Source: Rhodanobacter thiooxydans (lineage in GTDB: Bacteria; Pseudomonadota; Gammaproteobacteria; Xanthomonadales; Rhodanobacteraceae). From it: DNA of 64,000 nucleotides. Below the pieces are notes generated by a model, which was not told the origin of the DNA, did not search any database, and saw nothing but the letters and a program-made list of their open reading frames with translations. Made by a program: the position numbers and the translations under genes. Within the stretch, counting starts at the first letter, position 1; the number at the start of each line of letters is the position of its first letter. Shown here in pieces: positions 44,473 through 64,000 of this stretch. The DNA is taken from contig NZ_CP088923.1 of assembly GCF_021545845.1 (NCBI RefSeq), positions 2,046,001 to 2,110,000 on the forward strand. The letters are read 5' to 3'.

Positions 44473-45798
44473 TCAGAGCTCCAGATGCATACGCAGCGCC
44501 ACGAAGCGCGCCGGCCCGCGATCGCGGTTGTAGCCAGGGTTGCGCACCAGTTGCAGGTCGGGGCTCAGGGTCAGGTACGGGCCGACCGCGCAGCTGTAGT
44601 AGACCTCGAGCAATTGTTCCCGGCCGTAGCGCAGCGCGCCATCGCCCAGCACGAAGCCGCTGCCGCCCAGCGCGAGGTATTCGCGATGCCCCGGCGAAAG
44701 TGCATTGAGCGCGACGCCGACGCCGAGACGATCGCCGGGACGGTTCCAGTGCGCGCCCGACAACTGGAAGCCGCCGCTGAGGGTGCGGTCGACCTCGGTG
44801 AAGGCGAACGATTCGGTGCGGCCGTCGTTCCAGCCGGCGCGCAGGAACAGGCCGGTGTCGCCGTGGTCGGCCAGCGGCAGCTCGCCGTTGAGGCCGAAGC
44901 CATACCTGCGCCGGCCGGGGCGCTCGTCGGCGGTGATGTCGGGCACGCTGCCGCTGGCCTGCGCGGTGGCGATGGCCTGCCGGTACACGCCCATCGAGGC
45001 GATGTTGCGGAAGGCCAGCAGGCGCAACGCCCAGCCATCCGGCTCGGGCTGCACGGTCAGCTCGACCTGCTCGCCGCGGGCCTGGCGCAACGACGGCACC
45101 AGGCGCTGGCCGTTGGCGTGCACGGGCATCCGGTAGATGCCGTAGCGCAGGCTCCAGCCCGCATCCACCCAGGCCAGCATCACGCCGTCGGTGTAGCCGC
45201 GGGTATCGGCGGCGAAATCCCAGGCGGTGTCGTTGAACAGCGTCCAGTTCATGAACTGGGTGCGCGTGCTGCCGGCGTAGCGGTTCTTGTCGAAGTCGTC
45301 GCTGGCGGCCATCTTGCCGATCTTGACCTCGACCCGCCGCACGGCTTCCGCGCCCGGCAGCTGATCCTGGGCACGCTCCCCTGTCGAGGTGGCGTCGCCG
45401 AGGGGCAGCGTCCAGCGCAGGAAGCGGCGGGCCACGTAGGGGCCCTTGCCGAGCCCGGTGGTGCCGGAGCGGATCACGTCGCCGTTGGTCAGGCCGCCCA
45501 GCCCGGTGGCGTCGCTGACGCCGCCGCCCTTGAACATTTCCACGTCGAGGTAGAACTGCAGGCGTGCAGGCAGGGCCACGCCGAAGTAGGCGCCGAAAGT
45601 GTCCGAGCGCCTGGTGTCGCTGCGGGCGTGCAGGCTCAGCGGGCCGGCGTAGGGCGAGTGCAGCGGGGACTGGTGCTGGTCGACGAAGGTGTACTGCGCG
45701 CCCAGCCACTGGGGCACGAACAGGGGCGCGTCGCCGGCGTGGGAGAGCGGGGCGACCAGCGCCAGCGGCGCGGCGAGGAGGAAACGGGCGAAGCGCAT
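44473..45798 (-). CDS. Outer-membrane carbohydrate-selective porin (OprB-like)
   Basis: A 441-residue outer-membrane beta-barrel protein. It begins [23 protein letters not shown], a signal peptide cleaved near SHA. The mature protein alternates hydrophobic and polar residues as in beta strands, contains [22 protein letters not shown] near its start and ends with the aromatic/hydrophobic strand [12 protein letters not shown]. The pattern matches the carbohydrate-selective OprB family, so sugars or related solutes are likely substrates. The start at 45798 follows from the signal peptide. Confidence 0.82.
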
Positions 45799-46000
45799 GT
45801 TCTCGTTCCGTGCAGGGGCACGGAGCGAGCGGGTCAGACCGGTACGGTCCCGCTCACGGCCGTGCCGTGATGGTATGGCTGTGGTGGGCATGGCGACGCT
45901 GGCGCGTCGCGCTGCCGCCGCGACTACTGGCGGGATCGTCGTTCATCTGGGTTGCAATTATCCAATGGGCCCCGGCGGGGCGCGCGCATGATCGGCGCGC

Positions 46001-48013: not shown

Positions 48014-49411
48014 CTACACCACCCCGAGGAGATAGTACGCGGCGATCACCACCAGCACTGCCAGGGTCTTGATCACGGTGATCGCGAAGATGTCACGGTA
48101 GGACTGCCGGTGGGTGAGCCCGGTCACCGCCAGCAGGGTGATCACCGCGCCGTTGTGCGGCAGCGTGTCCATGCCGCCGGAGGCCATCGCGGCCACCCGG
48201 TGCAGCACCTCCATCGGGATGCCGGCGGCGTGCGCGTTGGCGATGAAGGTCTCGGCCATCGCGCCCAGCGCGATGCTCATGCCGCCGGAGGCCGAACCGG
48301 TGATGCCGGCCAGCGCGGTCACGGTGACCGCCTCGTTGAGCAGCGGGTTGGGGATCGTGTGCAGCGCGTCGGCGACCAGCTTGAAGCCGGGTAGGGCGGC
48401 GATCACCGCGCCGAAGCCGTACTCGGAGGCGGTGTTCATCGAGGCCAGCAGCGCGCCGCCGACCGCGGCCTGGCTGCCGGCGGCGAGGTGCGCGGTCACT
48501 GCGCGCCAGGCGAACGCCAGCACGCACAGGATGCCGACCAGCAGCGCGCCCTCGACCGCCCAGATCGCGGCCACCTTCGACACTTCCTGCACCACCGGCT
48601 TCGCGCTGCCCACTACGCTGGGCAGGAACGACTGCGTCTCGCCGTAGAGGCGCGGGATCAGGTCGGTGAACAGCTTGTTGCACACGCCGACCAGCACCAG
48701 CGGCAGCAGCGCGACCAGCGGATGGGCCAGCTTGTCGCCCTCGAACGGAGCCGGCTCGTTGCGCAGGTTGTCGCCGTAGCCCTCGCCAGCCGCGGCGGCC
48801 TTGCGCCGACGCCAGTCGAGGTAGCTCAGCCCGATGGCCAGGATGAACACCGCGCCGATCGTGCCCAGCCACGGCGCCGCCCAGGTGTTGGTGCCGAAGA
48901 ACGAAGTGGGGATGATGTTCTGGATCTGCGGCGTACCCGGCAGCGAATCCATGGTGAAGGTGAACGCGCCCAGCGCGATGGTGCCCGGGATCAGCCGTTT
49001 CGGTATGTCGGACTGGCGGAACAGTTCCGCCGCAAACGGATACACCGCGAACACCACCACGAACAGCGAGACTCCACCGTAGGTCAGCAGCGCGCACACC
49101 AGCACGATGGAGAGAATCGCCCGGCTGCGCCCGACCAGGCCGATGGTGGCCGCCACGATCGCCTTGGAAAAACCCGACAGTTCGATCAGCTTGCCGAATA
49201 CCGCGCCCAGCATGAATACCGGGAAGTACAGCTTGAGGAAGCCGACCATCCTGTCCATGAACAGGCCGGTGAACATCGGCGCCACCAGCGACGGCTCGGT
49301 CAGCAGCACCGCACCCAGCGCGGCGATCGGCGCAAACAGGATGACGCTGTAGCCACGATAGGCCGCGAACATCAGAAAGCACAGTGCGACCAGCACGATC
49401 AGAAAAGCCAT
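48014..49411 (-). CDS. GntP-family permease (resembles hydroxybutyrate permeases)
   Basis: A 465-residue inner-membrane transporter with about 12-14 hydrophobic segments. The start MAFLIVLVALCFLMFAAYRG, the motif FPVFMLGAVFGKLIELSG, and the late conserved GITGSASGGMSIALGAM and GGMDTLPHNGAVITLLA loops are GntP-family features. Among GntP proteins the AAYRGYSVILFAPIAAL opening resembles D-beta-hydroxybutyrate permeases more than gluconate permeases; this is by eye. It is divergent from a TonB receptor gene across 155 bp that contain a 25-bp dyad, and a PHB-depolymerase-type gene lies in the same locus. Import of hydroxybutyrate-like acids is the favoured inference. Confidence 0.85.
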   Translation of the reverse strand: MAFLIVLVALCFLMFAAYRGYSVILFAPIAALGAVLLTEPSLVAPMFTGLFMDRMVGFLKLYFPVFMLGAVFGKLIELSGFSKAIVAATIGLVGRSRAILSIVLVCALLTYGGVSLFVVVFAVYPFAAELFRQSDIPKRLIPGTIALGAFTFTMDSLPGTPQIQNIIPTSFFGTNTWAAPWLGTIGAVFILAIGLSYLDWRRRKAAAAGEGYGDNLRNEPAPFEGDKLAHPLVALLPLVLVGVCNKLFTDLIPRLYGETQSFLPSVVGSAKPVVQEVSKVAAIWAVEGALLVGILCVLAFAWRAVTAHLAAGSQAAVGGALLASMNTASEYGFGAVIAALPGFKLVADALHTIPNPLLNEAVTVTALAGITGSASGGMSIALGAMAETFIANAHAAGIPMEVLHRVAAMASGGMDTLPHNGAVITLLAVTGLTHRQSYRDIFAITVIKTLAVLVVIAAYYLLGVV

Positions 49412-49465
49412 CCGTGAATCTCCCACCACGACAGGCCACGAGTATCCCGGACGCCCCATGCCGGC

Positions 49466-49490
49466 GGCACTGTACGAAGGTACAAGTGCC
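49466..49490. promoter_or_regulatory. 25-bp dyad operator upstream of TonB receptor 1 and the GntP permease gene
   Basis: The dyad reads GGCACTGTAC-GAAG-GTACAAGTGCC, with symmetrical GGCACT...AGTGCC outer and GTAC...GTAC inner words. A near-identical copy (one base different) lies at 53423-53447 ahead of TonB receptor 2, at almost the same distance from its ATG (76 versus 74 bp). A TANNNT-type -10 candidate (TACTCT at 49510-49515) follows 19 bp downstream, so the dyad centre is near -44, a usual activator position. It is also 55 bp upstream of the permease start. The bound regulator is unknown. Confidence 0.7.
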
Positions 49491-49566
49491 GCCAGCGTGC
49501 GCCGCCGCCTACTCTCCCCTCATCAGCATTCGCGCGAGCGATGCATTCACTGCAGGGGGGGATGTC

Positions 49567-51870
49567 ATGAAGCGTACGCATCTGAGTTCGGCGATTGGCC
49601 TGGTGCTGGGTTTTGCGTTCGGCGCGCCATTGCAGGCCCAACAGGTCCCTGTCGATGACAATATGACCCAGCAGGCTGCGACATCTCCAGGCCTGGCCAG
49701 GAAGAGCGAAGCTACCAAGCTGGAAGCCGTCAAGGTCACCGCGCGCCGCCGCGACGAGTGGTTGCAGGATGTACCGGTCGCCATTTCGGCCTTCAGCCAA
49801 CAGCAGCTGTCGGATCTGCATGCGGACGATATTTCCGGTATCCAGCATGCGGTGCCGAATCTGTATCTCGACAAGGGCGATGGCGCGAACGCCGTCGTCT
49901 ACATCCGCGGCGTCGGTCAGAACGACTCGCTGGCCTTCGCCGATCCGGGTGTGGGCATCTATGTCGATGACGTGTTCGTCGCGCGCTCGCAGGCTGCCTT
50001 CCTGGAGTTGTTCGATGTCGACCGGGTCGAAGTACTGCGCGGTCCGCAAGGCACGTTGTACGGGCGCAATACCATCGGTGGCGCCATCAAGTTCGTTTCG
50101 TCGCCGCCACCGCGCACGCCCAAGGGCTACCTGGAGATGGGGGCCGGAAACTACGACCAGCGTGTGCTCAAGGCCAGCTTCGGCGGCCCGTTGGTCAAAG
50201 ACACGCTGAATGGCAAGGTAGCCATCGCTTATTCCGAGCGTAACGGCTATGCCAGGAACACGGTGGACGGCAAAAGCGATGGTGACCAGAACACGCTGTC
50301 CGGGCGCGCCGCACTTGACTGGAAGCCGAGCGATCGCCTGCAGGTGCTGTTCAGCATGGATGGCAAGCGCGATCGACCTGATACCTCGCGCAGTCCGGTA
50401 CGGGAAACGTCGATCACCGGTGCCACGTCGTCAGGCCAGTTGGTGACCTACCCGAGGGCTACCGATCCGTATGTCGTTGACGTCAACGCGAACGGGTTGT
50501 CGGATCTTACCGCCTATGGCGCATCGGTGACGGCGCGCTATCAGGCGTCGGATGCGGTGATGCTCGAATCAATCACGGCGTATCGCGACATGGACTTCAA
50601 ACTGAATCTGGACACCGACGGTTCGCCGTTGCCGATCCTGGACATTTTGCTCAAGGAAAAGGAAAACCAGTTCAGCCAGGAGCTCCGCGCCAATTACGAT
50701 GCGGGTGGCCCGCTCACCGGTACTGCGGGTATGTATTACTTCCACGACGACGACACCTCCTTCTCTGGTGTGGATGACGGGTCGGCCACCATCTTCGGCT
50801 TCCCGGTCACCATCTTCGGCTTTCCCAGCTCGAGTCTGGCCGACACGAAGCAGGTCACCAAGTCGTACGCCGCATTCGCCGACGCGTCCTACAATATCAA
50901 CGATAAGCTCGCCCTCAGCGCGGGCTTGCGATACACCTACGAAGAAAAGACTTCGGGGCGGGAATTCGAGAATTTCTTCGATCCGGCCGTTTCGATGATC
51001 AGGAAGACGCCGCCGTTTCTTGCCGGTGCAGGGGTGGTCGGGAAGCCAATCCATGGCAAAGCTGACTTCGATGCGTTGACGCCAAAATTCTCGTTGTCCT
51101 ACAAACCGAACAGCGAGGTGTTGCTGTATGCCTCGGCGGCGCGTGGTTTCAAGAGCGGCGGCTTCGATGGCCGGGGCACGACCGATTTCAGCTTCCAGCC
51201 GTTCAAGCCGGAGTTCGTGTGGACTTACGAGGCCGGCGCCAAGACCGGCTGGATGGACGGTGCGTTGGTCCTCAACGCAGCCTATTTCTACAGCGATTAC
51301 ACGGATATGCAGGTGACCAGCTTTGGTGCGGATCCGGTCAGCGGCGTCTTCGTCAGCCTGTTCTCCAACGCTGCGGCTGCCACCATCCAGGGCTTGGAAT
51401 TCGAACTGGCTGCACAGCCGAACCCGAACCTGTCGATCAACGCGACGCTGGGCCTGCTCGATGCCAATTATGACAAGTTCAGCACCTTGGTCGGCGGGGT
51501 GGTGACCGATGTCAGCAAACGCGACCTCGTCAACAGCCCCAAGCTCAACGCAAGCATCGGCGTCACCTGGACACATCCGGTCGCCAATGGTCTGGATGTC
51601 GTGTTGCATGGTGACGCCAACCATCGCAGCTCGTTGGCTACCGAAATCACCGATTCCCCGGTTCTGCGTCAGCGTGCCTACACCTTGCTGAACGCATTCG
51701 TCGGGTTGCGTTCGGCCAAAGACAAGTGGGAGGTGCGTGCCGGGGTACAAAATATCGGTAACGAAAAGGTGCACGTCCAAGGCTTTAATCTGGCGGAATT
51801 TCCCGGCGTGCAATTGGCTTTCTACACCGCGCCGCGCACCTACGACCTTCGCGTAATTTACCGTTATTGA
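49567..51870 (+). CDS. TonB-dependent outer-membrane receptor 1
   Basis: A 767-residue receptor. The signal peptide MKRTHLSSAIGLVLGFAFGA is cleaved near LQAQ. A plug domain follows (TARRRDEWLQDVPVAISAFS; IYVDDVFVARSQAAFLELFD; RVEVLRGPQGTLYGRNTIGG), then a 22-strand-type barrel ending in the aromatic C-terminus VIYRY. The plug type is that of Xanthomonadales/Sphingomonadales receptors for organic substrates rather than typical siderophore receptors. ATG 49567 is fixed by the signal peptide. Codon use is less GC-rich than in the core genes around it. The neighbouring permease and hydrolases suggest the substrate is an oligomer of hydroxy acids. Confidence 0.93.
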   Translation: MKRTHLSSAIGLVLGFAFGAPLQAQQVPVDDNMTQQAATSPGLARKSEATKLEAVKVTARRRDEWLQDVPVAISAFSQQQLSDLHADDISGIQHAVPNLYLDKGDGANAVVYIRGVGQNDSLAFADPGVGIYVDDVFVARSQAAFLELFDVDRVEVLRGPQGTLYGRNTIGGAIKFVSSPPPRTPKGYLEMGAGNYDQRVLKASFGGPLVKDTLNGKVAIAYSERNGYARNTVDGKSDGDQNTLSGRAALDWKPSDRLQVLFSMDGKRDRPDTSRSPVRETSITGATSSGQLVTYPRATDPYVVDVNANGLSDLTAYGASVTARYQASDAVMLESITAYRDMDFKLNLDTDGSPLPILDILLKEKENQFSQELRANYDAGGPLTGTAGMYYFHDDDTSFSGVDDGSATIFGFPVTIFGFPSSSLADTKQVTKSYAAFADASYNINDKLALSAGLRYTYEEKTSGREFENFFDPAVSMIRKTPPFLAGAGVVGKPIHGKADFDALTPKFSLSYKPNSEVLLYASAARGFKSGGFDGRGTTDFSFQPFKPEFVWTYEAGAKTGWMDGALVLNAAYFYSDYTDMQVTSFGADPVSGVFVSLFSNAAAATIQGLEFELAAQPNPNLSINATLGLLDANYDKFSTLVGGVVTDVSKRDLVNSPKLNASIGVTWTHPVANGLDVVLHGDANHRSSLATEITDSPVLRQRAYTLLNAFVGLRSAKDKWEVRAGVQNIGNEKVHVQGFNLAEFPGVQLAFYTAPRTYDLRVIYRY

Positions 51871-51911
51871 GGGGAAGCTGAAGTTAGGGATGCGCTGATC
51901 GAGTCTCTGCT

Positions 51912-52019
51912 CGTCATTCCAGCAAAAGCTGGAATCCAGTGTCCTCAAACCGTAGCCGAGGCACGGGATCCCCGTTTGACCAGCCTTCGGCTGTTGAAAG
52001 GCACCTCGCTGGGATGACG
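51912..52019. repeat. REP/BIME-like element after TonB receptor 1
   Basis: Begins CGTCATTCCAGCAAAAGCTGGAAT with an AGCAAAAGCT hairpin, contains CCAGCCTTCGGCTG, and ends GCTGGGATGACG, which pairs with the start. It is the third copy of the CGTCATTCC...GGAATCCAGTG type in the window. It may terminate the receptor transcript. Confidence 0.8.
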
Positions 52020-52114
52020 TCTTGTTCAGGCCTTCCTTAGACGACCTAATCTCACTTGAAGGTTATTGCGCTTCCGCAAGTCAATAAAATCCGTAAGAAT
52101 CACAGGAGCATCTC

Positions 52115-53386
52115 ATGCGCAAGCTACGAGTCACCCGATTCTTTCGTCCGGTATCTTTTGGCATCAAGAGAGCAGTGATTGTCGGAGCCGGGATATTCGC
52201 CATCGCGTTTGGCAGTTCGGCAGCCGCTGGCTCCACGACGCTTGAGGCCAGTTACAGTTCCAATATCCAGAATGGCTGGGAACGTGTCGAACGTTGGCGC
52301 GATACCGAGCCTGCATTTACTCAGGAGTCTTTCCCCACTGACGGACGGGGTGATCAGTCGGGTCAACGTGTGACGTTCTTCGGCAGCAGCAAACCGAATT
52401 CATCACGATTCCTCATGTATTACGCACCCGGCTGGAGCAGCAATACCAAACCGGTGCCAATATTGCTCGTGCACGGAGCGAATCAGGATGCTGATCTCGC
52501 GTGGGCCAATCCGAACGAAGCTGGTGGCTATGGCTGCGGCCGTGCGAGCTGTCCCACGACTGGCATGATGCAGTCGCTTTCAGCCGATGGCTACAAGGTA
52601 TTCGCGCTGGGCCTGGCCCACAAGAATGGCGATGGCTATTTCTGGTCAGAGCAGATCGCGGATGCTGTTGCCATAATCAGAAGTCGCACCGGCGCTACAC
52701 AGGTTGACGTGGTTGCCTGGTCCAAGGCGGCTTCCAATGCGCGGATGTACATTTCAAACGTGAAGAAGACCTGGGGTACAGCCTATCGAGGAGATGTTCG
52801 TCGTCTGCTGCTGCTCGGTTCGGCCAACAACGGAATCGACTTGTCTTTCCGTCATGGCTGGAGTTTCAGCCTTGTCGTTTATCCCGCGTGCGGCGGCGTC
52901 ATCAATGGCCCAACCCCGCACAATCAACTGATGTGCTACGGTTTTTTCCATGACGGAGCGGAGTGGACCTATGACTCCGCTTATTTTCCTGGCTCGGCAC
53001 AATTGCTGAAGCGATGGGACTCGGTTTATCCGCTGCCAACCTATGAACAGGACTGGTACACGACTTATTTTGGTGGCCAGGGATATTATAGCAAAGGCCC
53101 AGGTATCGACGCCTATATGGGTAAATCACTGGTCGACGTGATTCGCAACTCACCATCGGCGCCAGGTGTTCGCGTGTACAACTTGTGCGGCAATCAGAAC
53201 GACATAGCGCTCTTGCATAACGAACACACAGGGCCATCGGATGGCGTTGTTTTTATCCAGAGCTGCCGGGATGTAGTAGGTATTGCTAATGATGGTGGTG
53301 GTGCCACCATTGCGGTCAACCACCTGGAGCTGGGATGGGAGCCGCTTGCGATCGCCCAGGTCAAGGCCTGGCTGGATGCACCCTGA
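52115..53386 (+). CDS. Secreted alpha/beta hydrolase (PhaZ7/lipase-like)
   Basis: A 423-residue exported protein. A long N-terminal signal region (hydrophobic core VIVGAGIFAIAFGSSAAAG) precedes an alpha/beta-hydrolase domain: oxyanion strand PILLVHGANQD (about 115-125), nucleophile elbow VDVVAWSKAASNARM with Ser203, and a late histidine in AVNHLELGWEP (His403). The elbow AWSKA departs from GxSxG. Overall layout recalls secreted lipases and the PHA depolymerase PhaZ7, at a distance. Visibly lower GC than its neighbours suggests recent transfer. It lies between two TonB receptor genes, so it probably cleaves an ester polymer or oligomer outside the cell. Confidence 0.75.
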   Translation: MRKLRVTRFFRPVSFGIKRAVIVGAGIFAIAFGSSAAAGSTTLEASYSSNIQNGWERVERWRDTEPAFTQESFPTDGRGDQSGQRVTFFGSSKPNSSRFLMYYAPGWSSNTKPVPILLVHGANQDADLAWANPNEAGGYGCGRASCPTTGMMQSLSADGYKVFALGLAHKNGDGYFWSEQIADAVAIIRSRTGATQVDVVAWSKAASNARMYISNVKKTWGTAYRGDVRRLLLLGSANNGIDLSFRHGWSFSLVVYPACGGVINGPTPHNQLMCYGFFHDGAEWTYDSAYFPGSAQLLKRWDSVYPLPTYEQDWYTTYFGGQGYYSKGPGIDAYMGKSLVDVIRNSPSAPGVRVYNLCGNQNDIALLHNEHTGPSDGVVFIQSCRDVVGIANDGGGATIAVNHLELGWEPLAIAQVKAWLDAP

Positions 53387-53422
53387 CTGGACAGAATTTG
53401 AATCCGTCGCGAACGCAGCGGC

Positions 53423-53447
53423 GGCACTGTACCAAGGTACAAGTGCC
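53423..53447 (+). promoter_or_regulatory. Second copy of the 25-bp dyad, upstream of TonB receptor 2
   Basis: GGCACTGTAC-CAAG-GTACAAGTGCC differs from the copy at 49466-49490 by one base. A TAAGCT -10 candidate lies 18 bp downstream (53466-53471), and a 19-bp word GAGCGATGCATTCACTGCA at 53492-53510 is identical to 49536-49554. The whole control region, not only the dyad, has been duplicated. Confidence 0.7.
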
Positions 53448-53521
53448 CAGCTTCGCGTGCATGCCTAAGCTCCCTTCATCGGCATTCGCGTGAGCGATGC
53501 ATTCACTGCAAAGGGGACGTC

Positions 53522-55807
53522 ATGAAACGCACGCATCTGAGTTCGGCAATCGGCCTAGTTCTGGGTCTGGCCCTGGTGGCGCCACTGCAGGCACAGCAGA
53601 CGAACGAGGATGCCAGTGCCAAGCCGACGGCGGCGAAGCAGGCCGAGGCGAAGCAGCTGCAGGAAGTGACGGTCAGCGCGCGTCGCCGCGACGAGTCGCT
53701 GGAAAAGGTGCCGGTCGCGGTCACCGCGTTCAGCGGCGAGGACATGAAGGACCTGCAGGCGAACAGCGTCGATGGCCTGCAGGGCGCGGTGCCGAACATG
53801 AACATCGTGCAGGGCCGCGGTTCGTCCTCGGCGGTGAACATCTTCATCCGCGGCATCGGTCAGCCCGACGCGCTGCAGACCTTCGATCCGGGCGTGGGCA
53901 TGTACGTCGATGACGTCTACTACTCGCGCATCCAGGGCGGGTTGATCAGTCTGTTCGACGTCGAGCGCGTCGAAGTGCTGCGCGGTCCGCAAGGCACGTT
54001 GTACGGCAAGAACTCCACCGGCGGCGCGGTCAAGGTGGTGACGAGGAACCCGGGCGACAGTACCGAGGGCTCGGTCGAAGCCGGTTTCGGCAAGTTTGGC
54101 CGGCGTGAGGGCAAGTTCTATCTCGGCGGTCCGCTGGGCGACGCATGGTCGGCCTCGATCGCCGGCGGGTTGGCCCAGACCGACGGTTACGTCACCGATC
54201 CGTCCACCGGCCACAAGTACAACGACGAGGACAACAAGTCCGTGCGCGGCAAGCTGCGCTACCACCCGTCGGAGCATTTCGATGCGGTACTCAGCCTCGA
54301 CTACACCAAGCAGGACACCGGCCTCACGCTGGGTCAGCCGGTCTCGGTGCTGAAGCGCACCGACCTGGTGTTTGGCTCGGTGAAGCTGTACACCCCGAAT
54401 CCGGACCAGAAGTACGATTTCAGGACGCGCACCTCATTCAGTCCGGACAAGGGCCAGCAGCTCAAGCACGAAGGCGCCGCGCTGAACCTCAACTGGAAAC
54501 TGTCCGACCGCTGGAACCTCAAGAGCATCAGCGCATTCCGCAAGCTCGACAGCGATTCCTACGTCGACATCGACGCCTCGCAGTTCCAGTTGGGCGACGT
54601 GCTGGTCGACTTCCGCCAGAAACAGGCCAGCCAGGAGCTGCAGCTGCAGTACGACAACGGCAGCAACCTGCAGGCGGTGTATGGCCTGTACTGGTTGCGC
54701 GAGACCGTGCCGTCGCACCAGGAAGCGTACGCCAGCGACCTGTTCGCGCTGGCCGGTAGACGGATCAATTTCCTGCGCACCATCGACGACGATCTCACCA
54801 CCACCACCTACGCCGGCTTTGCCCACATCAACTGGGAGTTCGTGCCGAGCTGGACGCTGGCCGCGGGCGTGCGCTACAGCAGCGACCACAAGGATTACGA
54901 CCGCAGCACCAGCACGTTCTGGGGCGTGCCGTTCGGCAGGTTGAACGAGACCGTGGCCTTCAACGCGAGCAAGCGCTGGAATGCTTGGACGCCCACGCTC
55001 AGCCTGCAGAAGCAGCTCGATCCGCAGACCATGGTCTATGCCTCGGCCAGCCGCGGCTTCAAGTCCGGTGGCTTCAACGGCCGCGCCAACACCAAGGCCG
55101 AAACGAAGAGTGCCGAGTACAACCCCGAGTACGTGTGGACCTACGAGCTGGGCCTGAAATGGCGTTCGGCCGACAACAAGCTGCAGGCGAACCTGGCCGC
55201 GTTCCACAGCAACTACACCGACTTCCAGGCCCGCGTGTCGGAAGTGCAGAACCCGGGCTCGATCACCCCGACCTTCGCCTTCCCGGTGATCAACGCGGCC
55301 AAGCTGAAGATGGACGGCATCGAGTTCGAAGGCGCCGCCGTGTTCGGCCAGGGCACCCGATTGTCGGCCCAGGTCGGCTACATGGACGCGCGCTACGCCA
55401 AGTTCGTCGACCATCGCCTGAATCCCAGCGACCCGTTGTACAACCCGCGCCTGCACGACCACGTGCCGTTCTCGCCGACCTGGACCTCGCGGGTTGCGGC
55501 CACGCAGGCCTTCACCCTGGGCGACGGCAGCGCCATCACCATCGGCGCCGACTGGTCGTACCGCAGCGAAACCTGGCTGAGCGTGGACAACTACGACGCC
55601 TTGAGCCAGAAGGCCTACTCGGTGACCGGCCTGTTCGGCATCTACGACTCCGCCGACGGCCACTGGCAGTTCCGCACTGGCGTGCGCAACCTCGGAGACA
55701 AGGTCTACAAGACCGATGGCCAGGAGTTCTCCAGCGTTGGCAATATCCGCACCGCGTACTACGGTATGCCGCGCAACTGGTACGCCAACGTGCGCTACAA
55801 CTTCTGA
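53522..55807 (+). CDS. TonB-dependent outer-membrane receptor 2
   Basis: A 761-residue receptor. The signal peptide MKRTHLSSAIGLVLGLALVA is nearly identical to that of receptor 1 (23 of the first 26 residues match). The plug has ARRRDESLEKVPVAVTAFSG, MYVDDVYYSRIQGGLISLFD and RVEVLRGPQGTLYGKNSTGG. The barrel ends with the aromatic strand NWYANVRYNF. Beyond the plug the two receptors diverge, as expected if they bind related but different ligands. Codon use is GC-rich and normal for the genome, unlike the preceding hydrolase. A stem-loop follows, then the PHB-depolymerase-like gene 74 bp downstream. Confidence 0.94.
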   Translation: MKRTHLSSAIGLVLGLALVAPLQAQQTNEDASAKPTAAKQAEAKQLQEVTVSARRRDESLEKVPVAVTAFSGEDMKDLQANSVDGLQGAVPNMNIVQGRGSSSAVNIFIRGIGQPDALQTFDPGVGMYVDDVYYSRIQGGLISLFDVERVEVLRGPQGTLYGKNSTGGAVKVVTRNPGDSTEGSVEAGFGKFGRREGKFYLGGPLGDAWSASIAGGLAQTDGYVTDPSTGHKYNDEDNKSVRGKLRYHPSEHFDAVLSLDYTKQDTGLTLGQPVSVLKRTDLVFGSVKLYTPNPDQKYDFRTRTSFSPDKGQQLKHEGAALNLNWKLSDRWNLKSISAFRKLDSDSYVDIDASQFQLGDVLVDFRQKQASQELQLQYDNGSNLQAVYGLYWLRETVPSHQEAYASDLFALAGRRINFLRTIDDDLTTTTYAGFAHINWEFVPSWTLAAGVRYSSDHKDYDRSTSTFWGVPFGRLNETVAFNASKRWNAWTPTLSLQKQLDPQTMVYASASRGFKSGGFNGRANTKAETKSAEYNPEYVWTYELGLKWRSADNKLQANLAAFHSNYTDFQARVSEVQNPGSITPTFAFPVINAAKLKMDGIEFEGAAVFGQGTRLSAQVGYMDARYAKFVDHRLNPSDPLYNPRLHDHVPFSPTWTSRVAATQAFTLGDGSAITIGADWSYRSETWLSVDNYDALSQKAYSVTGLFGIYDSADGHWQFRTGVRNLGDKVYKTDGQEFSSVGNIRTAYYGMPRNWYANVRYNF

Positions 55808-55818
55808 TCCACGCCGAG

Positions 55819-55848
55819 CCGCAGGAGCCCGCTGGCGGGTTCCTGCGG
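55819..55848 (+). terminator. Stem-loop between TonB receptor 2 and the depolymerase-like gene
   Basis: CCGCAGGAGCCCGC and GCGGGTTCCTGCGG pair over 14 bp with one G-T mismatch. It belongs to the TGTAGGAGC palindrome family and may act as a partial terminator or as an mRNA-stabilising element between two genes on the same strand. Confidence 0.6.
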
Positions 55849-55881
55849 ATACTTTGTGAACCTGCAAGACGGAGCGAGCCG

Positions 55882-56916
55882 ATGAATACCCGATGGGTAG
55901 CCCGCCTGCTGTGGCTGGCCCTGCTGGCCAGCGGCGGCGTTTGTGCGAAAGACACCGGTTCGGGCCTGCCCGGATTGAAGCTGGACCCGGCGCGCACCGC
56001 CGTGGTCGGTCTCTCTTCCGGCGCCTACATGGCCGGCCAGGCGCAGATGGCCTACCCGGAGCTGTTCCCGAACGCGGCCCTGGTCGCGGGCGGCCCGTAC
56101 GGCTGCGCTGGTGGCAAGCTGGACGTGGCACTGGGCAGCTGCATGAAAGGCACGCCGGCACCGGACGTGGCCGCGCTGGTGGCCCATGCCGCGAAGCGCT
56201 CGGCGGCGGGCGAGATCGGTGCGCTGAAGGATCTCGCCCATGCGCACGTCTATCTGCTGCACGGCAAGGACGATGCACTGGTGGCCCCTGCGGTGGCAGA
56301 GGCGGGGGTGCAGTTCTACCGGCAACTGCGCGACGCCACACCGGCGCTGAAGGGCATGCAGGTGCACGACGATGGCGCACGCGCGTTCGCACACAACCTG
56401 CCGATAGCCGCCCGCGGCGACAATTGCGACAAGTCGGTGGCGCCATATCTGGGCCACTGCGGCTTCGACGCGGCCGGCGAGATCTTCGCGCAGATGTTCG
56501 GCAAGCCGGCACGCTCGGCAGACAAGGCGCAAGGCGAGCTGCGCACGTTTGACCAGGACGCGCTGCGCCCGGAGGGCGCCGATGCGTTCCTGGCCGGCAC
56601 CGGCTACGTCTACCTGCCGCCAGCTTGCCTCGCTGGCAAGCCCTGCGGCCTGGTGGTGGCGTTCCACGGCTGCAAGCAGAACGCCGATGCGGTGGGCAAG
56701 GCCTTCGTCGAGGACGCCGGCTTCAACCGCTGGGCTGACGTCTACGCCGTGGCGGTGCTATATCCTCAGATCCGCGCAAGTTTCGCGCCCTTGAATCCGC
56801 AAGCATGCTGGGACTGGTGGGGATATTCCGGAGCCGACTACGACACACGCCAGGGCGTACAGCTGCGCTGGGTGGTGAATGCGGTGCGGGCGCTGGGGAT
56901 GCCGGCGGGGCATTGA
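55882..56916 (+). CDS. Secreted PHB-depolymerase-type esterase
   Basis: A 344-residue exported esterase. The signal peptide MNTRWVARLLWLALLASGGVCA is followed by the catalytic domain of the short-chain PHA depolymerase/esterase family: lipase box VVGLSSGAYMAGQAQMAYP (nucleophile Ser45), VYLLHGKDDALVAP (acid region), CGLVVAFHGCKQN (oxyanion segment) and CWDWWGYSGADYD. Several cysteines fit the extracellular disulfides of this family. No substrate-binding C-terminal domain is present, so soluble oligomers or amorphous polymer are likelier substrates than crystalline PHB. It is the last gene before the IS element, which may have cut off downstream members of the locus. Confidence 0.88.
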   Translation: MNTRWVARLLWLALLASGGVCAKDTGSGLPGLKLDPARTAVVGLSSGAYMAGQAQMAYPELFPNAALVAGGPYGCAGGKLDVALGSCMKGTPAPDVAALVAHAAKRSAAGEIGALKDLAHAHVYLLHGKDDALVAPAVAEAGVQFYRQLRDATPALKGMQVHDDGARAFAHNLPIAARGDNCDKSVAPYLGHCGFDAAGEIFAQMFGKPARSADKAQGELRTFDQDALRPEGADAFLAGTGYVYLPPACLAGKPCGLVVAFHGCKQNADAVGKAFVEDAGFNRWADVYAVAVLYPQIRASFAPLNPQACWDWWGYSGADYDTRQGVQLRWVVNAVRALGMPAGH

Positions 56917-56973: not shown

Positions 56974-57996
56974 TTATGCAAGCGAGCATCCAGGTGATGC
57001 GTGCGCAGAGGCAACGAGGCGGTGTCTGGGGTAGTCAGGATCAAACAGCGAGTTGGTATGGATGACGCCCCAGACTAGGTGCAGGAGCTTCCGCATGGCG
57101 GCACACACGGTCACGATGGGGAGCTTCCCGCGTGCGAGCAACCGTTCGCAGAAGGCACGAACCACGGGGTTGTGGTTCTTGGCGCAGATGGCGGGAAAGT
57201 AGAGTTTGGCGCGCAAGCCGGGGGCACCGGTTTTGGAGATCCGGACCTGTCCCTTGAGCGTGCCCGACTCGCGCCGTGCCGGGTTGAGGCCGGCGAAGGC
57301 GACCAGCTTGCCCGGCGCGTCGAAGCGTCGCAGGTCGCCCAGTGCGGCGAGCAGGGAGGCCGACGTGGTCTTGGCGATGCCGGGGATGGACGTCATCAAC
57401 GCCGCGTCGTAGCGCAGCTGGGGATCCTTGTCGATGTGATTGTTGATGCGCTGCTCCAGCGCCTTGATCTGCTTGCGCAGTTCCTTGAGCGACGCTTCCA
57501 CCGAGTCGCGTACGGCGTCATTGGCGACGTCGAGTCGGTTCGCTTCCATCCGCTCCATGCCCTTGAGATCGTCCAGCCGTTCGACCAGCGCGCGCAAGGT
57601 GCGCTGGGCCGCTGTCGGCGGCATCCACGGCGCCATCGGATGGGTGCCGGCCTGCTGACTGGTGGCGAACTGCGCAATGAGCTTGGCGTCTGTGCGGTCG
57701 GTCTTGGTTCGCGTCAGCTGGCTCTTGCCGAAGTACTTTACTTGCGCCGGATTGGCCACGTAGACCGTCTTGCCTTGCTGTACCAGGAAGATGGCCAGTG
57801 CCTCGTGATAGATCCCCGTCGCTTCCATGCACACCGCCGCTTCCGGCGCGTGCTTGTCCAACCAGGTCATCAACTCCTGGAAGCCTTCTTCACGATTGGC
57901 CACCTTGGCGCGTGTCTGGAATTTGCCCGGCTTGGCCAGACCAACGGCCACATCAAACGTGGCCTTGGCCACATCCACTCCCACAACGTTTGTCAT
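56974..57996 (-). CDS. IS110-family transposase (DEDD recombinase)
   Basis: A 340-residue transposase. The N-terminal RuvC-like DEDD domain shows GVDVAKATFDVAVG (Asp8), MEATGIYHEAL (Glu) and RTKTDRTDAKLIAQF (two Asp). The C-terminal transposase_20 domain shows IPGIAKTTSASLLAALGDL and FAGLNPARRESG, which includes the serine region that in IS621 forms the covalent DNA intermediate. Uninterrupted, so the element may be active. ATG 57996 (MTNVVGVDVAK) is preferred; another ATG lies five codons upstream. The stop lies about 18 bp from the inferred element end. Confidence 0.96.
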   Translation of the reverse strand: MTNVVGVDVAKATFDVAVGLAKPGKFQTRAKVANREEGFQELMTWLDKHAPEAAVCMEATGIYHEALAIFLVQQGKTVYVANPAQVKYFGKSQLTRTKTDRTDAKLIAQFATSQQAGTHPMAPWMPPTAAQRTLRALVERLDDLKGMERMEANRLDVANDAVRDSVEASLKELRKQIKALEQRINNHIDKDPQLRYDAALMTSIPGIAKTTSASLLAALGDLRRFDAPGKLVAFAGLNPARRESGTLKGQVRISKTGAPGLRAKLYFPAICAKNHNPVVRAFCERLLARGKLPIVTVCAAMRKLLHLVWGVIHTNSLFDPDYPRHRLVASAHASPGCSLA

Positions 57997-58236
57997 CGCC
58001 TTACCTCGCATGGTTTGTTCCGATCACCATGCTCATCCGGCTGATCCTTAGGTGTGCAGGCTCACGCCAGTGGCGGGCCGAGGGTACCGTTCAAACTTCT
58101 GGATGAGCGAAATCGGAACCGGGGTGTGCATCTACGTCACGGGCTCGAAGCCAAAGGAGCGCATCGGCATCACCCGGTTCCCCCGATGATCAGTCGGGAA
58201 TGCTCGACCCTGACAGGTCGGACATCAAGACCTAAG
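57997..58236 (-). ncRNA. Putative bridge-RNA region of the IS110 element
   Basis: About 240 bp of non-coding sequence between the inferred left end and the transposase start. IS110-group elements transcribe a structured bridge RNA from this position that pairs with donor and target DNA (established for IS621). Possible stems on the minus strand include GTCGAGCATTCCCGAC-type and CCGACTGATCATCGG hairpins at about 58170-58210. I did not fold the RNA or locate the guide loops, so the call is from position and family. Confidence 0.45.
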
Positions 58237-59104: not shown

Positions 59105-62100
59105 ATGCTGAGCGCCAGCGTCATCGCCATCGCCGCGCTGTGCTGGCTCGGCCTGCTGTTTGGCGTGGCGCTGCTCGGCGAGCGCCGCCCCCACATTTTC
59201 GAGAAGCGCTGGGCGATCGTGTACGCGCTGTCGCTGGCGATCCACTGCACCTCGTGGACGTTCTACGGCACCGTGACCCAGGCCAGCCGCTCGGGCTGGT
59301 GGCTGCCGCCGACCTTCGTCGGGGCGATCCTGATGTACCTGTTCGCGCTGGGTTTCCTGCGCCGGATGGTGCAACTGGTGCGCGAGTACAACGCCGGTTC
59401 GCTGGCCGACCTGATCGCGGTGCGGCTGGGGCGGCACCCGGGACTGGCGGCGCTGGTCACGGTGGTGGTGGTGATCGGCATCGTGCCGTACATCGCGCTG
59501 CAGCTGAAGGCGGTGGCGATGAGCTACGGCATCCTCAGTCACGGCCAGCTGGCCGAATCCAGCCCGTGGCAGGACAGCGCGCTGTACGTGGCATTGCTGA
59601 TGGCGCTGTTCGCGATGCTGTTCGGCACCCGGCGCGCCTCGACCATGGCGCACAACCGCGGGCTGGTGCTGGCGATGGCGTTCGAATCGCTGTTCAAGCT
59701 GGGCGCGATGCTGGCGCTGGGCACACTGTTGTTCGCCGCGTTGCCGGCGGATCTGCCGGCGAACGTACCGGCGCCGCCGGACAGCAGCGGCTTCCCGGCG
59801 CTGATCCTGCTCGGCGCACTGGCGATGTTCACCATGCCACACCAGTTCTACGCCGGCATCGTGGAATGCCGCGAGGACGGCCAGCTGCGCACCGCGCGCT
59901 GGCTGTTTCCGCTGTACCTGCTGCTGATCTCGCTGCCGATCCTGCCGCTGGCGCGGCTGGGTGACGCGTGGCTGGGCGCGAGCGGCGTGTCGTCGGACAT
60001 GTACGTGCTGGCGCTGCCGCTGGCGCGCGGCGAACACGGGTTGGCGCTGGTCGCTTTCCTCGGTGGCCTGAGCGCCGCCACCAGCATGGTGGTGATCGCC
60101 ACGCTGACCCTGAGCCTGATGGTGGTGAACCACTTCGTCGCGCCGCTGCGGGTGCGGGCGGGCTGGGGTCGCGACGAGCACGGCGATCTGCGCGGCGAAC
60201 TGCTGAATTACCGGCGCGTGGCGATCCTGGTGGTGATCCTGCTGGCCTGGGCCTACAGCAGGCTGCTGGCGGGCAACGAGGCGCTGGCCGACATCGGCGC
60301 GATTTCGTTTTCCGCGCTGGCCGGCTTGACCCCGGCGCTGCTGGCCGCGGTGTACCGGCCGCAACTGGGCTCGCGCGCGGTCATGGCCGGGCTGGCCGCC
60401 GGCACCCTGGTGTGGCTGTATGCGGTGCTGCCGGCATTGCTGTCGTCCATGCCCGCGTGGCTGCACGACGGCCCGTTCGGCCTGCACTGGCTGGCGCCGG
60501 ACGGCCTGCTCGGGCTGGGCAACTGGAACCGGCTCGGTCGGGCCGTGGTGGTGAGCCTGCTGCTCAACGTCGCGGTGATGCTGGCGATGGCCGGTTCGCG
60601 CTACGGCAGGGTGGCGCGCACGGTCAGCGTGGGCGATGTCGGTCTGGTCGAACTGCGCGCACTGGCGGCGCGCTTCCTGCCGCCGGAACGGGTCGAATAC
60701 CTGTTCGCCAGCGCGCCCGCCGCGGGGCCGGCCGGCAGCGCGCGGGTCGCCGAGGTCGAGCACGAGCTGGCTGCGGTGATCGGCGCCGCCTCCGCGCGCC
60801 TGTTGCTGGAGGTGGTGCACCGGCAGGGCCGCGACGACCTCGATACGGTGGTCGCCATCGTCGGCGAGGCGGCGCAGGACCTGCGCTTCAACCAGCGCGT
60901 GCTGGAGGCGGCGCTGGAGAACATGAGCCAGGGCATCTGCGTGGTCGATGCCGAGCTGCGCCTGGTGGCCTGGAATACGCCGTACGCGCGACTGTTCGAC
61001 TATCCGCCGGAGATGTTGCAGGTGGGCCGGCCGGTGGCCGAGCTGACCCGCCACAACATCGATATCGGCATGCTCGGCCCGGGCGAGGTGGAGCAGCGCG
61101 TGCAGCGCCGGCTGGCGCACATGCGCGAGGGTACCCGGCATCTCTCCGAGCGGCGCTTCCCCGACGGCACCATCGTCGAGATCCGCGGCAACCCGATGCC
61201 CGGCGGCGGCTTCGTGGCCACCTTCACCGACGTCACCGCGTTCCGCCAGGCCGAGGCGGCGCTGAAGCGCATCAACGAGACGCTGGAACTGCGCGTGGAA
61301 GCGCGCACGCGCGAACTGGCCGCGGCCTCGGCCGAGGCGCAGGCGGCGAACGAGGCCAAGAGCCGCTTCCTCGCCGCGGTGACACACGACCTGATGCAGC
61401 CGCTGCACGCGGCGCAGCTGTTCGCCCATGCGCTGACCGAGCGCGGCGGCGACGCGGCCAACGCGCGGCATCTCAACGGCGCGTTGGCCGCCACCGAAGG
61501 CCTGCTCACCGGGCTGCTCGACGTGGCCCGGCTCGAAGGCGGGCGGCTGCACCCGCAGCCGCGCGCGTTCGCGCTGGCCGAGGTGCTGGATCCGCTGGCC
61601 GCCGAATTCCGTGCCATCGCGATCGACCGCGGCGTGCGGCTGGACGTGGTCGGCACGCGCGCCTGGGTGCGCTCCGATCCGCAACTGCTGCGCCGGGTAC
61701 TGCAGAATTTCCTGTCCAACGCGCTGCGCTATGGCGAACGCGGCCGCGTGCTGCTCGGCACGCGCCGGCGCGGTGGGCAGCTGCGCATCGAGGTGTGGGA
61801 CACCGGCCCCGGCATCGCGCCGGAGGAGCAGCGGCTGATCTTCCAGGAGTTCCGCCGCGGCAGCGCCGCGGGCGGGCAGGGTCTGGGCCTGGGCCTGTCG
61901 ATCGCCCAGCGGATGGCCGACCTGCTTGGCCATCCGCTCGGGCTGCGTTCTTGGCCCGGACGCGGCAGCGTGTTCCATGTCGACGCGCCGGTGGCGCAGG
62001 CCGTGGCGCGATCCGCGCCGCCCGCGCATGCGCAGCAGCCGCTGCCTGCCGGTCGCGCCTTGCTGCTCGACAACGAACCGGCGGCGCTGGCCGCGCTTGG

Positions 62101-62413
62101 CAGTCTGCTCGCCGGCTGGGGCTGGCACGTCCACGTCGCCCGCAACGCCGAGCAGGCGCTGGCCGCACCGTGGCGGCCCGACCTGCACATCCTCGATTTC
62201 CATCTCGACGGCGGGCAGACCGGGCTGGACGTGTGGCATCTGCTGCGCGCCCGCTACGCCGACGTGCCCACCGTGATGCTCACCGCCGACCGCGACGGCG
62301 AATTGCGCCAGCGCCTGCTCGAAGCCGGAGTGGGGGTGCTGTACAAGCCGCTGAAACCGCTGGCGTTGCGGCAGGTGCTGCAGCGGGTGATCGCGGGCGC
62401 GGAGCGGGCCTGA
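59105..62413 (+). CDS. Hybrid sensor histidine kinase with N-terminal sodium:solute symporter-like domain
   Basis: A 1102-residue sensor kinase. Residues 1 to about 490 contain some 12-13 transmembrane helices of the sodium:solute symporter type (for example NAGSLADLIAVRLGRHPGLA and FLGGLSAATSMVVIATLTLS). A PAS-like domain follows (about 590-700; LENMSQGICVVDAELRLVAW), a coiled linker, the HisKA phospho-acceptor in AAVTHDLMQPLHAAQL (His761), an HATPase with DTGPGIAPEE and GLGLGLSIAQRMAD, and a C-terminal receiver with phospho-acceptor Asp1031 in LHILDFHLDGG. This resembles CrbS/CbrA-type kinases that sense small carboxylates or carbon status. ATG 59105 is used; ATG 59081 would add eight residues. 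No partner regulator is nearby. Confidence 0.93.
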   Translation: MLSASVIAIAALCWLGLLFGVALLGERRPHIFEKRWAIVYALSLAIHCTSWTFYGTVTQASRSGWWLPPTFVGAILMYLFALGFLRRMVQLVREYNAGSLADLIAVRLGRHPGLAALVTVVVVIGIVPYIALQLKAVAMSYGILSHGQLAESSPWQDSALYVALLMALFAMLFGTRRASTMAHNRGLVLAMAFESLFKLGAMLALGTLLFAALPADLPANVPAPPDSSGFPALILLGALAMFTMPHQFYAGIVECREDGQLRTARWLFPLYLLLISLPILPLARLGDAWLGASGVSSDMYVLALPLARGEHGLALVAFLGGLSAATSMVVIATLTLSLMVVNHFVAPLRVRAGWGRDEHGDLRGELLNYRRVAILVVILLAWAYSRLLAGNEALADIGAISFSALAGLTPALLAAVYRPQLGSRAVMAGLAAGTLVWLYAVLPALLSSMPAWLHDGPFGLHWLAPDGLLGLGNWNRLGRAVVVSLLLNVAVMLAMAGSRYGRVARTVSVGDVGLVELRALAARFLPPERVEYLFASAPAAGPAGSARVAEVEHELAAVIGAASARLLLEVVHRQGRDDLDTVVAIVGEAAQDLRFNQRVLEAALENMSQGICVVDAELRLVAWNTPYARLFDYPPEMLQVGRPVAELTRHNIDIGMLGPGEVEQRVQRRLAHMREGTRHLSERRFPDGTIVEIRGNPMPGGGFVATFTDVTAFRQAEAALKRINETLELRVEARTRELAAASAEAQAANEAKSRFLAAVTHDLMQPLHAAQLFAHALTERGGDAANARHLNGALAATEGLLTGLLDVARLEGGRLHPQPRAFALAEVLDPLAAEFRAIAIDRGVRLDVVGTRAWVRSDPQLLRRVLQNFLSNALRYGERGRVLLGTRRRGGQLRIEVWDTGPGIAPEEQRLIFQEFRRGSAAGGQGLGLGLSIAQRMADLLGHPLGLRSWPGRGSVFHVDAPVAQAVARSAPPAHAQQPLPAGRALLLDNEPAALAALGSLLAGWGWHVHVARNAEQALAAPWRPDLHILDFHLDGGQTGLDVWHLLRARYADVPTVMLTADRDGELRQRLLEAGVGVLYKPLKPLALRQVLQRVIAGAERA

Positions 62414-62604: not shown

Positions 62605-64000
62605 ATGAGCCAGCCGATGCCGCAGGACATACCCGGCGCTGGCGGCGCCGCTTCACGGCGCGTCGGCCGCGACGTCTTCGTCATCCTGCTCGCGCTGTAC
62701 GTCCTGATCCTTTACCCGATCCTGCGCGCCAACCGCTATTACATGGACGACCTCAAGCGCGCGCTGATCGGCCATACCGGCTGGGATTCCAATGGCAGGC
62801 CGCTGACGACCCTGCTGATGAAACTGCTGCAGTGCTACGACTCGGCACTGGTCGACCTCTCCCCGCTGACCCAGATCGGCGCCGTCGTAGTGCTCGCGTG
62901 GGCTGGCGCGATGATCGCGCGCCGCTACGCCATCCGTTCGCCGTGGGTGGCCGCCCTGGTGGCGTTTCCGCTGGGTGCACAGCCGTTCTACCTGGAGAAT
63001 CTTTCCTACAAGTTCGATGCCCTGAGCATGAGCATGGCGATGCTGCTCGCCCTGCTGCCGCTCATCGCGCTGAGGGATAACCGCAACGGATGGTGGTGGG
63101 GCGTGCTGGCGATTTTCGCCAGCCTCTGCTTCTACCAGGCTGCCATCAATGCCTATCTGATCTTCGTGCTGCTGGAGGTGGTGCTTGCCCAGTTGCATGG
63201 GGAGGAATTGCGGCGCTGGACCAGGCAGCTCCTGGCACGGGTAGGGCAGGTCGGCCTCGCCATGCTGGTCTATCAGGTGCTCGTCGGTATCCACATCCAC
63301 GGCTGGGTGAAGCAGAAGGCGGAGCGGATCCACGGCTTGCACGACCTGCCGCTGATCAAGGACAACATCGTCGATTTCTACGGGTTCATCGGCAGCAGCT
63401 TCAACCGCCACTGGTGGATGTATTTCGCCCCGGTCCTGGTGTTGCTGGCGCTGTTTCCCGTGGCGATCGGTCTGCGTTATGCGCGGCGGGTTCGCCACGC
63501 GCATCCGGCCTGGGTTGGCGCGATGCTGTTCGTGACCGCCTTCGCGCTGCCGCTGGCGGCGCTGCTCTGCGTGGCGGGGCCCATGCTGGTGCTGCTCAAG
63601 CCGGAGATCGAGCCGCGCGTGCTGGTGGGCGTGGGCGCCCTGCTGGCGGCGGCACTGATCGTCATGCAGGCGGCCCTGCGGCAATGGCATCGCTCGGTGC
63701 GGTGGGTGGTGGCCGTCGCCGGCATGCTCGCCCTTGGCATGTGCGCCATCGCCAGCGTCTACGGCAATGCCATGGGCGAGCAGAAAAACTACGAGGAGCG
63801 GATTGCCGCGCGACTGGCCGACGACCTTGCCGAGCTGGGGGCCGCCGGGCCGCTGCGCGGCTACCTGCTCGACGGCACGGTGGGGTACGCGCCCCCCGTG
63901 GCGCACGTCGTGGAGCAGTTCCCGCTGGTCCGCGCGCTGGTGCCGATCTATCTTTCCGTGGACGACATGTTCGCCAGCCACAATTTCCTCAACTACTACG
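62605..64000 (+). CDS. GtrII-like membrane glucosyltransferase, 5' part, runs off the window
   Basis: The frame from ATG 62605 (MSQPMPQDIPGAGG) stays open to base 64000, giving at least 465 codons with about ten transmembrane segments. The first periplasmic loop has NRYYMDDLKRALIGHTGW followed by GRPLTTLLMKLL, the Asp-Asp and GRPL pattern of GtrII-type glucosyltransferases that decorate O-antigen or other surface glycans using a lipid-linked donor. Later segments (QPFYLENLSYKFDALSMSMA; FYQAAINAYLIFVLL) fit the family. The antisense open frame over the same bases is a shadow. The C-terminus is not in the window. Confidence 0.82.
   Translation, partial: MSQPMPQDIPGAGGAASRRVGRDVFVILLALYVLILYPILRANRYYMDDLKRALIGHTGWDSNGRPLTTLLMKLLQCYDSALVDLSPLTQIGAVVVLAWAGAMIARRYAIRSPWVAALVAFPLGAQPFYLENLSYKFDALSMSMAMLLALLPLIALRDNRNGWWWGVLAIFASLCFYQAAINAYLIFVLLEVVLAQLHGEELRRWTRQLLARVGQVGLAMLVYQVLVGIHIHGWVKQKAERIHGLHDLPLIKDNIVDFYGFIGSSFNRHWWMYFAPVLVLLALFPVAIGLRYARRVRHAHPAWVGAMLFVTAFALPLAALLCVAGPMLVLLKPEIEPRVLVGVGALLAAALIVMQAALRQWHRSVRWVVAVAGMLALGMCAIASVYGNAMGEQKNYEERIAARLADDLAELGAAGPLRGYLLDGTVGYAPPVAHVVEQFPLVRALVPIYLSVDDMFASHNFLNYY

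Follow-up and report, generated by a model that had tools for sequence, protein, structure and literature searches.

The present analysis is concerned with a gene cluster of Rhodanobacter thiooxydans that lies in a stretch of 64,000 nucleotides (NCBI RefSeq assembly GCF_021545845.1, contig NZ_CP088923.1, positions 2,046,001 to 2,110,000), referred to here as "the window", of a 4.2 Mb genome. We have found that a permease, a palindromic operator, a TonB-dependent receptor, a secreted type-2 depolymerase and a membrane hybrid histidine kinase form a core that recurs across the order, and we consider it rather likely that the cluster serves the utilisation of polyhydroxybutyrate (PHB) or related short-chain hydroxyalkanoates and is built like a TonB-linked polysaccharide locus. 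A role of the core in 3-hydroxybutyrate metabolism, judged from its context, is highly likely. An earlier, sequence-only reading had placed five genes of one such pathway at 48014-56916, and all five are present there. Their joint assignment to 3-hydroxybutyrate has been strengthened by two features, i.e. a nearby oligomer hydrolase and a shared operator: the locus extends past position 56916, first with the kinase and then, outside the window, with a response regulator and the oligomer hydrolase (Table 1).

In the proposed pathway, the secreted depolymerase would cut the polymer into oligomers, and the downstream receptor ("receptor 2"), powered by TonB, would carry them over the outer membrane; the oligomer hydrolase, a putative lipoprotein, would yield the monomer in the envelope, and the GntP-type permease would move 3-hydroxybutyrate across the inner membrane, after which a dehydrogenase encoded outside the locus would pass it to central metabolism. 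The hybrid kinase and a LuxR-type regulator would sense a product and act via the palindromic operator of the locus. In the strain of the window and in R. thiooxydans LCS2, a pair of presumably foreign genes, encoding a second receptor ("receptor 1") and a hydrolase, would sit between the permease and receptor 2, behind a copied operator, promoter and signal peptide.

The TonB-linked carbohydrate loci of Xanthomonas and the polysaccharide loci of Bacteroidota combine a secreted depolymerase, a TonB receptor, an envelope oligomer hydrolase, a permease and a regulator with a shared operator. The locus described here has the matching set, from the secreted depolymerase to the regulator and the operator, but its predicted substrate is a polyester and esterases take the place of the glycosidases.

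The enzymes and the permease

The esterase that had been read as being of the PHB-depolymerase type passes the cut-off of the NCBIfam type-2 model NF050059 (305.4 bits, cut-off 280). Its alignment with 2d80, a solved PHB depolymerase, spans the whole mature protein (E 3.7e-42), and its nucleophile serine is kept, the aligned residue being the serine that the mutant chain 2d81 replaces by alanine; in the alignment with 2d80/2d81 the aspartate is also aligned, while the histidine is displaced by one column. In these respects it resembles the type-2 extracellular short-chain polyhydroxyalkanoate (PHA) depolymerases, from which it differs in being a bacterial protein of 344 residues with no added substrate-binding domain.

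The 3-hydroxybutyrate-oligomer hydrolase is the single PF10605 match of the genome (396.7 bits against a cut-off of 27, E 1.3e-118); its gene is located approximately 2.6 kb behind the kinase gene and is divergent from that of the LuxR-type response regulator. In a home-made test, a lipobox is found in 14 of 15 copies of the oligomer hydrolase, the copy of this genome included, and in 17 of 49 copies of the depolymerase, the copy of the window not being among them; judged from its sequence, the oligomer hydrolase is probably a lipoprotein, as is the depolymerase of some relatives.

The permease has no Pfam match (down to E 10) and no NCBIfam match, and is recognised only by its annotated relatives. 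These occur on plasmids, with up to 75% identity; 6 of the 15 matches listed are labelled "GntP family permease" and the remaining nine carry no annotation. Relatives at 72-75% identity adjoin a 3-hydroxybutyrate dehydrogenase gene in all three annotated regions, from Azospirillum lipoferum, A. oryzae and Klebsiella, where coenzyme A (CoA)-transferase genes are also part of the cluster; a fourth region that was fetched carried no annotation and is outside this count. Of the proposed likeness to GntP-family hydroxybutyrate permeases, the part that concerns the substrate is supported by these neighbours, while a match to a GntP family model has not been found, and we regard the protein as a probable 3-hydroxybutyrate permease. 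A single dehydrogenase of the genome is above the cut-off of TIGR01963, and it is encoded away from the locus.

As the assignment to a depolymerase family leaves the length of the side chain unfixed, the locus might serve another 3-hydroxyacid ester, e.g. a medium-chain-length PHA, rather than PHB, and in two regions of relatives (L067-L068) a depolymerase homologue stands near what appear, by eye, to be acyl-CoA ligases. The match to the type-2 short-chain model, the PF10605 hydrolase and a permease whose relatives adjoin the dehydrogenase are all in favour of 3-hydroxybutyrate, and we hold such a different substrate to be improbable.

The shared operator

The palindrome stands between the permease and receptor 1, and a second copy is located before receptor 2. 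An exact match to the form TTGTACCTTSGTACA occurs only twice throughout the genome, each time at this locus; at two mismatches, two more sites appear in the genome, against two for the reversed control. A blind search for TGTACCWWSGTACA in 97 genomes of the family has returned 40 sites in 39 genomes (reversed control, 6), each directly preceding the receptor gene of such a locus: 39 sites lie between the permease and the receptor, and the 40th stands before receptor 2 of the window. In nine relatives the sites adjoin the permease and the receptor in loci already examined; in the other 29 genomes, all 29 sites lie between these two genes and the depolymerase follows the receptor in 27, the two remaining regions being cut by contig ends. 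An exact TGTACCWWSGTACA site is absent from 58 of the 97 genomes, the loci of which were not surveyed collectively.

With up to two mismatches allowed, the operator occurs at 30 places in 36 loci (554 kb; reversed control, 4) that, read against the gene positions, comprise 25 permease/receptor promoters, four places upstream of the oligomer hydrolase gene (those of L057, L060, L061 and L065 alone) and one elsewhere (L113). Regions L066-L069 are outside this count and, searched separately, have no site within two mismatches.

The natural candidate for binding to the operator is the LuxR-type regulator of the locus. Its presumed partner, the hybrid kinase, has 11 hydrophobic stretches at its N-terminus according to a home-made hydropathy test, and that part of the protein matches no transporter profile at E 1; against the NahK/ErcS model, the kinase reaches 364, with a cut-off of 400. 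In the passages seen of three papers (PMC5715377, PMC8402216, PMC9100948), CrbS/CrbR is a system with an SLC5/STAC sensor kinase, and an inverted repeat is the CrbR binding site. The two systems are alike in joining a membrane hybrid kinase to a LuxR-type regulator, and an inverted repeat, the binding site in the case of CrbR, is the putative one here; they differ in their gene neighbourhoods and in that no transporter profile was found on the N-terminus of the kinase described here.

Conservation of the core

We have scanned 121 genomes of the order, counting a depolymerase match as strong at E below 1e-40 and a permease match at E <= 1e-20: the depolymerase occurs in 38 genomes (strong in 34), the permease in 78 and the oligomer hydrolase in 72. 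From these, 40 regions were picked by hand: 20 belong to the group of 38 genomes containing a depolymerase match, and another 20 (19 genomes) to the group of 78 containing a permease match, these last being taken mostly from genomes in which a strong depolymerase had not been found. The permease is present in 35 of the 40 regions, and in 24 of these 35 a receptor of the tested kinds lies within 1.5 kb, divergent from the permease in 23 and accompanied by a kinase in 22. Of the 20 depolymerase regions, 17 have such a receptor within the same distance and 16 have the kinase. The conserved co-occurrence that the sequence-only reading had called for is borne out, the permease, the receptor and the depolymerase being linked in 15 of the 20 depolymerase regions and in the 27 of 29 family genomes that were found through the operator. 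The oligomer hydrolase and the regulator follow in L050-L061 (partly cut in some) and in L065; a short-chain dehydrogenase/reductase, maybe the dehydrogenase of the pathway, is there in L058, L060, L061 and L065.

Several observations weigh against the proposed pathway. The oligomer hydrolase occurs in 20 of the 34 strong-depolymerase genomes and in 52 of the 87 others, and the permease in 22 of the 34 and in 56 of the 87; as there is no association at the level of whole genomes, the support for a joint function comes from linkage and not from co-presence. Of the 14 strong-depolymerase genomes that lack the oligomer hydrolase, 13 have remoter depolymerases (36-41%) and one genome is 67% complete. 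The oligomer hydrolase of the window's own genome has a partial operator-like stretch in its promoter and no site within two mismatches, and in three of the 24 loci in which permease and receptor are neighbours (L116, L120 and L130) the operator is lacking even when two mismatches are allowed. In 11 of the 35 permease regions no related receptor lies within 1.5 kb, and seven loci (L112, L114, L116, L117, L119, L120 and L121) have the permease, the receptor and the kinase with no depolymerase in the stretch. Import of oligomers is, moreover, our inference, and the monomer could pass porins.

These points bear on an alternative in which the locus does serve PHB, but the oligomers are cut outside the cell, the monomer enters via porins, and the receptor imports something else or signals. 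An envelope-held oligomer hydrolase fits oligomer import, yet a lipoprotein may also face outward, and in the 11 regions with no related receptor the permease alone would suffice for the monomer. Conversely, no neighbour of the permease is more constant than the receptor, which is kept in the seven loci that lack the depolymerase and which shares the operator; we regard the alternative as unlikely, and the TonB-dependent import of oligomers as the probable, most economical role of receptor 2.

A wider reading is that receptor 2 belongs to a TonB receptor family for polyester oligomers, that the operator defines a polymer-to-monomer regulon across the order, and that the receptor-hydrolase pair is a separately evolved module, grafted in behind a duplicated operator and signal peptide; the locus would then be the polyester counterpart of the polysaccharide utilisation loci. 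We would put this slightly above an even chance, its probability having been lowered a little because the genes show no association over whole genomes.

The seven depolymerase-less loci may belong to scavengers of oligomers freed by others. In L067 and L068, the depolymerase homologue is a remoter one (34-37%) and, by eye, has another hydrolase and a TonB receptor near it in addition to the apparent ligase; these regions may be polyester loci of a different kind.

The two receptors

Both receptors have the plug domain PF07715 and the barrel domain PF00593 above cut-off, as befits their initial description as TonB-dependent receptors. The NCBIfam models of known ligands are all below cut-off (receptor 1, 25 of 28 families listed; receptor 2, 25 of 25). 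For receptor 2, the closest solved relative is the pesticin receptor and the best NCBIfam model, though sub-threshold, is that of a siderophore receptor, so it might be an iron-siderophore or vitamin receptor that stands at the locus by chance; with every listed known-ligand model below its cut-off, and with the linkage to the permease and the depolymerase conserved over families, we consider this very improbable.

In a tree built by a quick method, from rows chosen at >=250 bits to one of three receptors, receptor 2 groups with the receptors of the permease slot (12 rows, support 100), whereas receptor 1 nests with receptors that are linked to relatives of its neighbouring hydrolase (8 rows at support 100; 10 rows at 99). 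All 41 such rows are split by one branch (98) from 28 other receptors of the genome, among which neither receptor falls. Neither this result nor the known-ligand models listed bear out the grouping with siderophore or sugar receptors that the sequence-only reading had named as refuting; the outer place of these other receptors is partly built in by the selection of the rows. The genome has 32 barrel matches, two of which gave no locus and are absent from the tree.

A third receptor type occupies the slot in other relatives, two congeners among them. In L050, L051, L052-L059 and others, the slot receptor is either of two types that are about one third identical, and the type alternates among close relatives, as if exchanged in place.

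The inserted receptor-hydrolase pair

For the hydrolase that follows receptor 1, the sequence-only reading had suggested a distant PhaZ7-like layout, which is not supported: the hydrolase scores 24.8 bits against the PhaZ7 model, with a cut-off of 450, and a search of the Protein Data Bank (PDB) with a profile of 14 relatives leads to class-2 lipases, no chain named PhaZ7 being among the 15 matches at E <= 1. With this assignment falls the PHB role of receptor 1 and the hydrolase, which is unsupported as it was put forward. The hydrolase shares with PhaZ7 of Paucimonas lemoignei its nature as a secreted alpha/beta hydrolase and a weak profile match, and differs from it in lying far under the family cut-off; PhaZ7 itself has been placed near lipases, according to the part seen of PMC7830162.

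The hydrolase is rare: it occurs in 1 of 151 genomes of the order, 2 of 45 of the genus and 2 of 398 of the phylum (one of these a weak match of 29%), and the idea that the five genes form a general unit has been rejected. The full set is found only in the genome of the window and in R. thiooxydans LCS2, i.e. in 2 of the 45 genus genomes; in LCS2, the same five genes are 95-98% identical and the kinase 90%, the hydrolase gene being divided between the ends of two contigs (L010 and L016).

The scan with the hydrolase has returned 15 loci, two of which are the halves of the LCS2 gene. In nine loci, all from Alphaproteobacteria or Alteromonadaceae, the hydrolase is preceded by a receptor of the same type as receptor 1, an AraC regulator is nearby in all nine, and an esterase of the hormone-sensitive lipase type stands between receptor and hydrolase in eight; the fetched stretches of these nine loci contain no match to the permease, type-2 depolymerase or oligomer-hydrolase queries. 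The sequence of L008 opens with the hydrolase; L013 is without a receptor match, as are the actinobacterial loci L014 and L015 and a further actinobacterial locus, L136, where a second alpha/beta hydrolase adjoins (in L014, by eye).

These partners elsewhere, together with the class-2 lipases of the profile search, suggest that receptor 1 and the hydrolase could be an unrelated lipid or ester module that landed in the locus, a reading to which we give somewhat less than an even chance. Here the pair has neither the AraC nor the esterase partner and stands behind the operator of the PHB locus, and in L009 a second receptor adjoins it, one whose closest group in the tree consists of receptors located near remoter depolymerase homologues. 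That receptor 1 and the hydrolase have PHB as their substrate is as likely as not.

The DNA upstream of the two receptors, operator included, and their two signal peptides are homologous. Seen with the tree, this indicates that receptor 1 is of mixed origin, its mature part being foreign and its signal peptide of the type of the locus; the most probable course of events is the arrival of a receptor and a hydrolase of foreign origin in the space that separates the permease from receptor 2, preceded by copies of the operator, the promoter and the signal peptide. The gap between receptor 1 and the hydrolase (51870-52115) holds a palindromic element of the genome-repeat kind (CATTCCAGCAAAAGCTGGAAT), possibly a trace of an insertion.

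Relation to published work

The link between TonB and PHB is already in print as a prediction: for Alteromonas macleodii, the TonB transporter MASE_06600, encoded beside a PHB depolymerase, was assigned PHB as its predicted substrate in 2020, and its transcript is raised under carbon limitation (log2 1.59), according to the passages seen of that paper (PMC7190382). The likeness to the present locus, a TonB receptor adjoining a PHB depolymerase, is one of neighbourhood; MASE_06600 is a single neighbour prediction, and the same passages (PMC7190382) mention no permease, oligomer hydrolase, kinase or operator. A literature search, mostly at the level of titles, that paired TonB with PHB, PHA or oligomers has led to a single paper in which a TonB receptor is connected with PHB, and the conserved locus, the operator and the grafted module were not met in it. 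In the main text of a 2025 review of PHA biodegradation (PMC11893044), as far as it was available, the words uptake, transport and outer membrane are absent.

The entry of hydroxyalkanoate oligomers into Gram-negative cells is hardly discussed, and a conserved locus with a receptor, an oligomer hydrolase, a permease, a regulator and an operator makes this step testable in a soil bacterium. The locus may also serve as a genomic marker for degraders of bioplastics. If the proposed pathway is true, TonB import would be extended to polyesters.

Features of the locus and its surroundings

Table 1. Features of the locus. Coordinates are those of the window; for features that reach or lie beyond its end, window-equivalent coordinates are given.
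Feature	Coordinates	Strand	Remarks
GntP-type permease, probable 3-hydroxybutyrate permease	48014..49411	-	Start is an internal ATG; the open reading frame opens at 49459
Operator palindrome 1	49463..49492		Intergenic, permease/receptor 1; minus-strand core TGTACCTTCGTACA
TonB receptor 1	49567..51870	+	PF00593/PF07715; probably foreign mature part, native-type promoter and signal peptide
Secreted alpha/beta hydrolase	52115..53386	+	Distant to class-2 lipases and PhaZ7
Operator palindrome 2	53420..53449		Upstream of receptor 2; core TGTACCWWGGTACA
TonB receptor 2, native receptor of the locus	53522..55807	+	Probable hydroxybutyrate-oligomer receptor
Secreted type-2 short-chain PHA depolymerase	55882..56916	+	NF050059 above cut-off; 2d80 match
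IS110 transposase gene	56974..58011		Between depolymerase and kinase
Membrane hybrid histidine kinase	59105..62413	+	PAS, HATPase, receiver
GtrII-type glucosyltransferase gene	62566-64218 (window-equivalent)		Between kinase and response regulator
LuxR-type response regulator	64269-64928 (window-equivalent)	-	Beyond the window
3-Hydroxybutyrate-oligomer hydrolase (PF10605)	65023-66870 (window-equivalent)	+	Probable lipoprotein; beyond the window

The IS110 query has no match in the regions of 40 relatives, and in the congener L051 a gene similar in size to the GtrII-type gene is located at the corresponding place. An open reading frame at 62653-63981 on the minus strand was rejected as a gene, having no family match and overlapping the GtrII-type gene on the opposite strand. 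Positions 44473-45891 encode a protein of 472 residues that appears to have a signal peptide and matches no NCBIfam model at 0.001; a 91% identical copy adjoins bipA in L051.

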